Positions 57,841 to 61,351 of a DNA stretch of 64,000 nucleotides are shown here, piece by piece. Under the pieces are notes generated by a model that searched no databases, was not told the origin of the DNA, and saw only the letters and a list, made by a program, of their open reading frames with translations. Position 1 is the first letter of the stretch. Every line of letters begins with the position of its first letter. Location: the NCBI RefSeq assembly GCF_013415885.1, contig NZ_CP058910.1, positions 558,001-622,000 on the forward strand, in the 5' to 3' direction. This DNA comes from Halosimplex rubrum (lineage in GTDB: Archaea; Halobacteriota; Halobacteria; Halobacteriales; Haloarculaceae). The translations under genes and the position numbers were made by a program.

Positions 57841-57961
57841 CACTACAGAGACGGCCGTCTCCCTACAAAAACACCCGTCAGCCGGGCGTCTGACCCCTGT
57901 GAACGGAGTGATGGATCTCGTTCGTCGTCCGACCGCCCGTACCAGCCCCTTCCCTCCGAAA

Positions 57962-57968
57962 CCTATTT
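57962..57968 (+). promoter_or_regulatory. TATA-like box upstream of the trpS leader ORF
   Basis: cctattt lies 27-33 nt before the ATG at 57995, the spacing seen for leaderless genes elsewhere in the window. It is the only AT-rich element in the 57900-58167 region. Confidence 0.4.
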
Positions 57969-57994
57969 GCCCGCCAGCGGGCTACCGGTAGGTG

Positions 57995-58078
57995 ATGACG
58001 CGGTCCGCTCTCGCGTGGCGCTGGCGCTCGCCCGCTCCGAGAGCGGACGGTACCGCGAGCGCGGTCGGTCGGGCCTAA
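57995..58078 (+). CDS. Candidate 27-codon leader ORF with two Trp codons
   Basis: An ATG at 57995 opens a short frame, MTRSALAWRWRSP onward, ending in TAA at 58076-58078. Codons 8 and 10 are Trp, separated by one Arg, just upstream of the Trp-tRNA synthetase gene. The start is at leaderless distance from the TATA-like box. Evidence is position and content only; it may be chance in GC-rich sequence. Confidence 0.3.
   Translation: MTRSALAWRWRSPAPRADGTASAVGRA
58003..58048 (+). other. Stem-loop overlapping the trpS leader ORF
   Basis: GTCCGCTCTCG (58003-58013) pairs perfectly with CGAGAGCGGAC (58038-58048) around a 24-nt loop that contains both Trp codons (58016-58018 and 58022-58024). The loop could open or close with ribosome position. 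Confidence 0.45.
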
Positions 58079-58167
58079 CCCGGCCGCCCGGGACGCGGTG
58101 CTCACTCGTTCTCCCGCTCGCTCGCCCGCCAGCCACCGCACACCCACCGACACACCCACCGACACAC

Positions 58168-59406
58168 ATGCACGACGACAGCGCCACCGACGCACAGCCC
58201 GCCGACCAGTCCGCAGATTCGACCCAGGAATCCGACGGGACCGACGGCGACGAGCCCGCCGACGCCGACGAGTTCACCGTCACGCCCTACGACGTGGACG
58301 GGACCGTCGACTACGACCGCCTGCTGGAGCAGTTCGGCGCCGACCGGCTCACCGACGAGCAGGTCGAACGGTTCCCCGACCACCCGATGCTGCGCCGACG
58401 GGTCTTCTACGCCGGCCGCGACGCCGACCGTTACCTCGCGGCCGCCGAGGCCGGCGACACGCACTCGATCGTCACCGGGATCGGCCCCTCCGGCCCGATG
58501 CACCTGGGCCACGTCCTCGTCTTCTACCTCGCCAAGCGACTGCAGGACGAGACGGGAGCGCACGTCTACGTCCCGCTCTCGGACGACGAGAAGTTCTACG
58601 CGAAGGACCTGTCCTTTCCGGAGATCGAGGACGCGACTCGCTCGAACCTGCGGGACCTCCTGGCCGTCGGGTTCGACCCCGAGCGCACCCGTATCGTCGT
58701 CGACCGCCTCGACGCCGACGCGGTGTATCCGCAGGCCGCCCGCGTGGCCGCCGACATCACGCAGTCGACCGTCGACGCGACCTACGGCGACCCCGACAAC
58801 GTCGGGCTATCGTTCTACCCGGCGGTGCAGGCCACCCACCTGCTGCTCCCGCAACTCGTCCACGGTCGCCACCCGACGCTGGTCCCCATCGCCGTCGACC
58901 AGGACCCCCACGTCCGGGTCTGTCGCGACGTGGCCGCCAAGGAACGGTTCGACGTGGACAAGCCGGGCGCCCTGCTCGGAAAGTTCCTCCCCGCGCTCGA
59001 CGGCCCCGGGAAGATGTCCTCCTCCTCGGACGCACCGGCCATCGAGCTGACCGACGACCGCGAGACCGTCCGGGCGAAGATCATGCAGCACGCTCACTCC
59101 GGCGGTCGCGTCGATATCGACGACCACCGCGAGCACGGCGGCGACCCGAGCGTCGACGTGGCCTACCAGTACCTCCACACGTTCTTCGAGCCCGACGACG
59201 AGCGCGTCGAGGGGCTCGCGGCCCAGTATCGCTCGGGCGAGTTGCTCTCCGGTGAACTGAAGGGGATCGCCGCCGAGCGGATCGGCGACTTCCTCGCCGA
59301 GCATCGCGAACGCAGGGACGCGCTCGGCGACCTGGAGTCGGAGCTGGCGCCGTATCGGTTGACCGAAAAAGAGCGGTCACGGCTGCGACCGTCGGTGTTC
59401 GCGTAG
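58168..59406 (+). CDS. trpS: Tryptophanyl-tRNA synthetase
   Basis: A 412-residue class I synthetase of the archaeal/eukaryal type. After an acidic N-terminal tail (about 1-45) comes the HIGH-equivalent GIGPSGPMHLGHVLVFYLAK, the Trp pocket region SDDEKFYAKDLSF and DQDPHVRVCRD. The KMSKS-equivalent is GPGKMSSSSDAPAIEL. It charges tRNA-Trp. The ATG at 58168 fits the conserved start and ends a 5' region with tandem CA-rich repeats. Confidence 0.96.
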   Translation: MHDDSATDAQPADQSADSTQESDGTDGDEPADADEFTVTPYDVDGTVDYDRLLEQFGADRLTDEQVERFPDHPMLRRRVFYAGRDADRYLAAAEAGDTHSIVTGIGPSGPMHLGHVLVFYLAKRLQDETGAHVYVPLSDDEKFYAKDLSFPEIEDATRSNLRDLLAVGFDPERTRIVVDRLDADAVYPQAARVAADITQSTVDATYGDPDNVGLSFYPAVQATHLLLPQLVHGRHPTLVPIAVDQDPHVRVCRDVAAKERFDVDKPGALLGKFLPALDGPGKMSSSSDAPAIELTDDRETVRAKIMQHAHSGGRVDIDDHREHGGDPSVDVAYQYLHTFFEPDDERVEGLAAQYRSGELLSGELKGIAAERIGDFLAEHRERRDALGDLESELAPYRLTEKERSRLRPSVFA

Positions 59407-60715: not shown

Positions 60716-61351
60716 ATGCCCGAAAACGCTAGCCTCGGCGGTAATCTCGACCAATTCGACTTAGATTTTGTGGAGCGAGAAGCGACACCACGACTGTTGA
60801 TGAAGCTGAGTATTCAGTTGCATCTGGCTGGACTCTCACTTTCGAATACTGTTTCTATTCTTGAGGTATTCGGTGTCAAACGTGCTCGCTCAACTATTCA
60901 TAATTGGGTTCACAAGGCTGATTTACAGCCCGAAGGTGGACACTCACCGGATCACGTCGCGGTTGACGAGACCGTGATCCGACTCAACGACGAGCAGTAT
61001 TGGCTGTACGCTGCTGTCGATCCGGAAACGAACAAACTGCTGCATACAAAGCTAAGACCAACTACAACGAAGGTTCTCGCCCATTCATTTCTCGCCGAAC
61101 TCAGCGAGAAACACGATGTTGACGACGCCGTGTTTCTCATCGATGGCTCCAAATCGTTAGAAGCTGCGTGTCACCGACATGGCTTCGATTTCAGATACGA
61201 AAAACATGGAAATCGGAACGCTGTTGAACGTGTCTTTAGAGAAGTAAAACGACGAACTGTATGTTTCTCAAACTGTTTTAGCAATGCCGAAGCAGAAACA
61301 GCCGACGATTGGCTCAGATCGTTCAGCTTCGCATGGAATCAGCTTATCTGA
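60716..61351 (+). CDS. IS6-family (haloarchaeal type) DDE transposase
   Basis: A 211-residue transposase. An N-terminal HTH (LHLAGLSLSNTVSILEVFGV, RARSTIHNWVHK) recognises the ends. The catalytic triad is VDETVIRLND (D), FLIDGSKSLEAACHRHG (D), and NAVERVFREVKRRT (E). Length and motif spacing match complete haloarchaeal IS6 relatives. No frameshift, so probably active. The last codons run into the right inverted repeat. Confidence 0.95.
   Translation: MPENASLGGNLDQFDLDFVEREATPRLLMKLSIQLHLAGLSLSNTVSILEVFGVKRARSTIHNWVHKADLQPEGGHSPDHVAVDETVIRLNDEQYWLYAAVDPETNKLLHTKLRPTTTKVLAHSFLAELSEKHDVDDAVFLIDGSKSLEAACHRHGFDFRYEKHGNRNAVERVFREVKRRTVCFSNCFSNAEAETADDWLRSFSFAWNQLI

Follow-up and report, generated by a model that had tools for sequence, protein, structure and literature searches.

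Leader-peptide attenuation is a textbook mechanism of gene control in bacteria, with trp and pheST of E. coli as examples. In T-box riboswitches, tRNA charging controls aminoacyl-tRNA synthetase genes, and a codon-like triplet is located in a hairpin. The attenuator of trpS2 in Streptomyces coelicolor has reportedly been studied experimentally. For trpS2 of Streptomyces avermitilis, a Trp leader together with a candidate attenuator has been predicted (PMC1262725). When the open-access literature was searched, no archaeal leader-peptide attenuation was found, most subscription papers lying beyond the reach of that search.

In the 64,000-nucleotide stretch of Halosimplex rubrum DNA analyzed here (the window), the region 57957-58167 is probably a ribosome-stalling leader-peptide attenuator of trpS, in which in-frame Trp codons serve as the sensor and a set of competing helices as the switch; as read from the sequence and its relatives, both sensor and switch are well supported. 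The preliminary description of this DNA had suggested attenuation-like control of trpS by a Trp-codon leader, and the comparison presented here supports that reading, while the helix H2, the competing pyrimidine tail, the leaders of trpS1 genes and the variants at other genes go beyond it. The features of the locus, with the evidence for each, are as follows.

57957..57968, + strand: core promoter, BRE-like CGAAAC plus TATA-like TATTT (sequence; placement kept in 87 leaders)
57995..58078, + strand: leader peptide ORF MTRSALAWRWRSPAPRADGTASAVGRA followed by a stop, 27 codons, predicted leaderless (homologous mini-ORFs, frame test)
58003..58013, + strand: strand 1, the 5' arm of helix H1, GTCCGCTCTCG (covarying helix)
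58016..58024, + strand: putative regulatory codons TGG-CGC-TGG (Trp-Arg-Trp) (TGG invariance, frame counts)
58038..58048, + strand: strand 2, the 3' arm of H1, CGAGAGCGGAC, predicted partner of either strand 1 or the tail
58049..58102, + strand: helix H2, adjoining H1 (covariation, helices 2 and 3 of the test)
58103..58116, + strand: strand 3, the pyrimidine-rich tail (arm:tail complementarity, occlusion folding, T content)
58168..59406, + strand: trpS2, tryptophan--tRNA ligase of 412 aa (NCBIfam, Pfam and PDB matches)

The TATA-like box had been described at a leaderless distance from the mini-ORF, and TATTT (57964-57968) is indeed centered 29 nt 5' of the leader ATG, with the BRE-like CGAAAC (57957-57962) in front of it. 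The mini-ORF starts with the ATG at 57995, for which a GTG at 57992 is an alternative, and ends with the stop codon at 58076-58078, located in the apical loop CCTAA of H2 (58074-58078). As had been described, it comprises 27 codons with two for Trp (58016-58018 and 58022-58024), and these are enclosed in the loop of a perfect 11-bp stem (58003-58013/58038-58048), which is H1. The distance from its stop to the trpS2 start ATG (58168) is 89 nt, close to the 90 nt given before. By itself, the window leader folds with an unremarkable energy (z -1.07), and the evidence for it is therefore conservation rather than energy. A search against Rfam left the leader itself unmatched, the single weak, sub-threshold match being elsewhere and on the opposite strand.

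The trpS2 product is an archaeal/eukaryotic-type tryptophan--tRNA ligase, matching NCBIfam NF008927 with 540 bits (cut-off 478 bits), PF00579, and TrpRS structures in the PDB at E 2e-72. It is a second TrpRS of this genome, which carries a longer canonical TrpRS gene elsewhere. Its closest relatives in named records are found in Halosimplex pelagicum, H. salinum, H. aquaticum and H. carlsbadense, and orthologues are present in 136 of the 391 sampled Halobacteria. A truncated second trpS2 copy (L313) was also observed in the same genome (G000:C1:2892300-2894400, minus strand), with an open frame of 279 residues and 67% identity over residues 155-409. Within the window, an open frame at 60716-61351 appears from its sequence to resemble an insertion-sequence transposase.

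Compared with bacterial amino-acid operon attenuators, the haloarchaeal leader shares a short leader ORF, a run of regulatory codons, three strands with mutually exclusive pairing, and a presumed signal, the supply of aminoacyl-tRNA. It differs from them in its archaeal promoter and predicted leaderless leader peptide, in the C/U-rich tail that replaces a clear hairpin and U-run terminator, and in the enclosure of the whole helix H2 within the alternative fold. With the S. avermitilis system it has in common a TrpRS gene named trpS2 behind a predicted Trp leader, a likeness by description, whereas it belongs to another domain of life and is also located before the canonical trpS1 in other genomes.

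A comparison of 150 trpS2 regions, with trpS2 proteins spanning 58-100% identity, revealed a short ORF containing W.W or WW 5' of 137 genes, while the chance level was 1.6% (24 of 1500 stretches of 300 nt drawn at random from the window). Among the 13 regions without such an ORF, eight keep the leader RNA and have either only one Trp codon nearby or an additional one located behind a stop or in another frame, two give partial matches, and three (L149, L150 and L158) have no leader. Both the stem and the Trp codons are kept across Halobacteria, in line with the conservation that had been named as a check on the initial reading. The promoter precedes the short ORF at a conserved position as well; over 87 leaders, counted from the leader ATG, the BRE CGAAAC occupies -38 to -33 and a T-rich box spans -31 to -25. 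Given this fixed distance and the haloarchaeal promoter spacing rule, transcription is predicted to begin at or just 5' of the leader ATG. A start further downstream would have spoken against the leader, and no TATA-like box was read between the mini-ORF and trpS2.

To describe the RNA structure, an alignment of 75 diverse leaders (A1) was used for the covariation of H1 and H2. The two helices are paired in 81.9% of cells, where shuffling gives 75.3% (sd 0.5) and sliding by one to three columns gives about 40%, and double-change cells numbered 199 against 87 (sd 11) in the shuffles. The variants of H1 include TCCGCTC/GAGCGGA, TCCACTT/AAGTGGA and CGCTG/CAGCG. H2 starts directly 3' of H1, and its apex GGCNTMACC is kept in most clades and lost in one trpS1 clade. 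Downstream of H2 follow GCTCMC and then the tail, a stretch with 79% pyrimidine, in which the tail has 40% T versus 13% T immediately downstream.

The 3' arm of H1 is complementary to the tail motif CGYTYTC as well, a pairing that would enclose H2. In 87 trpS2 leaders the longest arm:tail helix has a mean of 8.5 bp, whereas shuffling the tails gives 5.9 (sd 0.14); for a further 17 leaders (mostly of trpS1), which played no part in defining this pairing, the values are 9.1 and 5.7 (sd 0.28). AGTG arms occur with CACT tails in four leaders and CAGCG arms with CGCTG tails in three, and no AGCG leader has a CACT or CGCTG tail; few lineages carry this arm-tail covariation. Swapping tails between species gave no significant difference (p 0.07), because G-U pairs let most tails fit most arms. 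GCTCMC had also been considered as the third strand and was dropped, the pairs 61:128 and 67:122 being found in only 9% and 27% of sequences, respectively; instead, GCT is assigned to the base of H2, where it pairs with the AGT that follows H1, and CGYTYTC is taken as the third strand.

A stalled ribosome was simulated by deleting the 5' part of the RNA as far as 13 nt beyond the beginning of the final Trp codon. Arm:tail pairing then increased to 4.6 bp, compared with 2.0 bp before the deletion, H2 remained in place, and the predicted unpairedness of the tail differed modestly between the two states (0.445 versus 0.344). In folding of the window leader with strand 1 blocked in this way, 58039-58046 (GAGAGCGG) pairs with 58106-58113 (TCGTTCTC). 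Covariation, arm:tail pairing and simulated occlusion together provide computational support for mutually exclusive helices.

In the proposed mechanism, the transcript would begin at or just 5' of the ATG, and a ribosome would start on the leaderless mini-ORF. When charged tRNA-Trp is ample, the ribosome would clear the Trp codons, H1 (strand 1:strand 2) would form, and the pyrimidine tail would be left single-stranded, which represents the OFF state. When charged tRNA-Trp is short, the ribosome would halt within the H1 loop, at the Trp codons, and mask strand 1, so that strand 2 could pair with the tail around H2, and trpS would be expressed (ON). The comparison establishes that promoter placement, in-frame Trp codons and arm:tail complementarity are conserved and that H1 and H2 covary. 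Stalling, output and the direction of control are what we infer, the last of these because a shortage of Trp should, on physiological grounds, raise trpS.

With respect to the output, we consider premature transcription termination at the exposed tail, either intrinsic or by FttA/aCPSF1, the likeliest candidate, and give it roughly even credence. Transcripts of archaea have U-rich 3' ends, and U-tracts are bound by aCPSF1; the aCPSF1 of Methanococcus maripaludis required U4-tracts to bind efficiently (PMC8716108). In the leaders, what could correspond to a hairpin and U-run terminator is the T-rich, pyrimidine-rich tail, in which a U4 run is found in only 12 of 75 cases, and the window tail has no U run longer than 2. 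Since most tails are without a strong U-run, translational attenuation deserves consideration, in which the sensor is unchanged and the stall frees the trpS start or hands the ribosome on, without termination. The trpS start is predicted to become slightly more accessible when the 5' part is blocked (predicted unpairedness 0.518 to 0.561, p 1e-4), and the tail-to-start distance is fairly constant, with the trpS start located 52-92 nt 3' of GCTC in nearly all leaders. However, this change in start-site accessibility, which is what could be found of a sequestered start, is small, no conserved element beyond composition is present at the trpS start codon, and the T enrichment of the tail has a fixed place, as for a termination or processing signal. 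We regard translational output as a credible though somewhat doubtful alternative.

The attenuator reading presumes that a ribosome reads the leader. In each of 85 testable leaders, the reading frame was examined from the ATG nearest upstream of the last TGG, whichever frame that ATG was in. The ATG is in frame with the last TGG in 81 of them, at distances of 21, 24, 27, 30, 33, 36, 39 or 45 nt, and between the start and the 3' arm TGG occurs 196 times in frame 0, 22 times in frame 1 and three times in frame 2. The in-frame codons thus match the amino acid of the regulated gene. Trp makes up 9.6% of leader residues, two or more Trp codons are usual, and one TGG is invariant in A1. Since the frame is kept despite the varying distance and an RNA element alone would need no common frame, translation of the leader matters. 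Sensing independent of the ribosome was also considered, in which uncharged tRNA-Trp reads the loop UGG in a T-box-like manner, or TrpRS acts, through binding to H2, as a repressor of its own gene in a thrS-like manner. Although the UGG is indeed in a hairpin loop and the apex GGCNTMACC of H2 is kept as RNA even where it is not a stop codon, the ATG-TGG frame and the usual multiple Trp codons would be needless for an element bound by tRNA or protein, the apex is missing in one trpS1 clade, and no Rfam match supports such an element, which makes this explanation improbable. The leader resembles T-boxes in its synthetase gene target and in the codon-like triplet in a hairpin, and differs from them in keeping a reading frame and a start codon, which points to the ribosome as the reader; no Rfam T-box match was obtained at E<=5, and the conserved frame implies translation. 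That the mini-ORF encodes a functional microprotein, or is conserved incidentally to an RNA element, is very improbable, since the ADS segment of the peptide, though kept in many clades, is encoded by a conserved RNA arm, the peptide length ranges from 13 to 38 residues with stops at differing places, and several lineages have lost the C-terminal part or carry it out of frame. Because the stop may be located in H2, in the 3' arm or in the loop with the Trp codons, the conserved trait of the proposed attenuator is the reading through Trp codons and not a defined peptide.

A covariance model of the leader (R1) gave one strong match in the genome of the window, and no Trp leader was found before trpC or trpS1 of this genome. 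Between a TATA-like box and the start of trpC, a palindrome, TGTCC-GTTAGT-GGACA (L300), was observed, which may be an operator. At E<=0.01 and with weak matches counted in, R1 matched 179 of 391 Halobacteria, and outside Halobacteria only weak matches were obtained. In genomes without trpS2, the leader can precede the canonical trpS1, which ties it to function and not to one gene copy. On large plasmids, trpS2 with the leader is present in Haloferax mediterranei, H. larsenii and Natronorubrum aibiense, and the leader is absent from a Halobaculum plasmid copy of trpS2. On pHME505 of Haloferax mediterranei ATCC 33500 (L301), where R1 matches the leader at L301:1323-1456 with E 1e-31, trpS2 and its leader are flanked by integrase and transposase genes, which suggests that they move between replicons.

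Leaders of the same H1-H2-tail architecture were found at other genes. GNAT acetyltransferase genes are preceded by leaders without Trp codons in L226 and its relative L305 and, with another GNAT, in L306; the peptides, each followed by a stop, are MSAPNASAGRSRERTVRSAA, MSALSTFAVTSRERTVRSAA and MRVASHPNMCGRHTEKRPVSR, respectively. A leader in another Halosimplex genome (L224, G002:C1:1344111-1344242, minus strand), with the peptide MMSATGLGPVLWHGSTVADSALA before its stop and one Trp codon, lies upstream of an ABC-exporter-like gene, whose product is an ABC transporter carrying a membrane domain of the exporter type. In L236 (G192), the leader MVALSGWRRRVPGRATSVVSSR, also ending in a stop, has one Trp codon; a small ORF comes next, and a GNAT gene lies about 300 nt downstream. 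A wide class of non-Trp leaders had been looked for by a pattern search and by a model of the 3' half of the leader alone (R2), independent of Trp codons, and was given up, the searches yielding almost only trpS loci and few GNAT or ABC loci. Tentatively, the leader might be a modular haloarchaeal ribosome-sensing switch, with Trp codons at trpS1 and trpS2 and other codons at GNAT and ABC exporter genes, possibly as part of an inhibitor response that includes an auxiliary, sometimes plasmid-carried TrpRS.

If the proposed attenuator is confirmed, an archaeal gene would be controlled by the movement of a ribosome on the leader in front of it, with archaeal machinery and a leaderless leader peptide, and cultured haloarchaea would offer a defined RNA for dissecting the link between translation and transcription.
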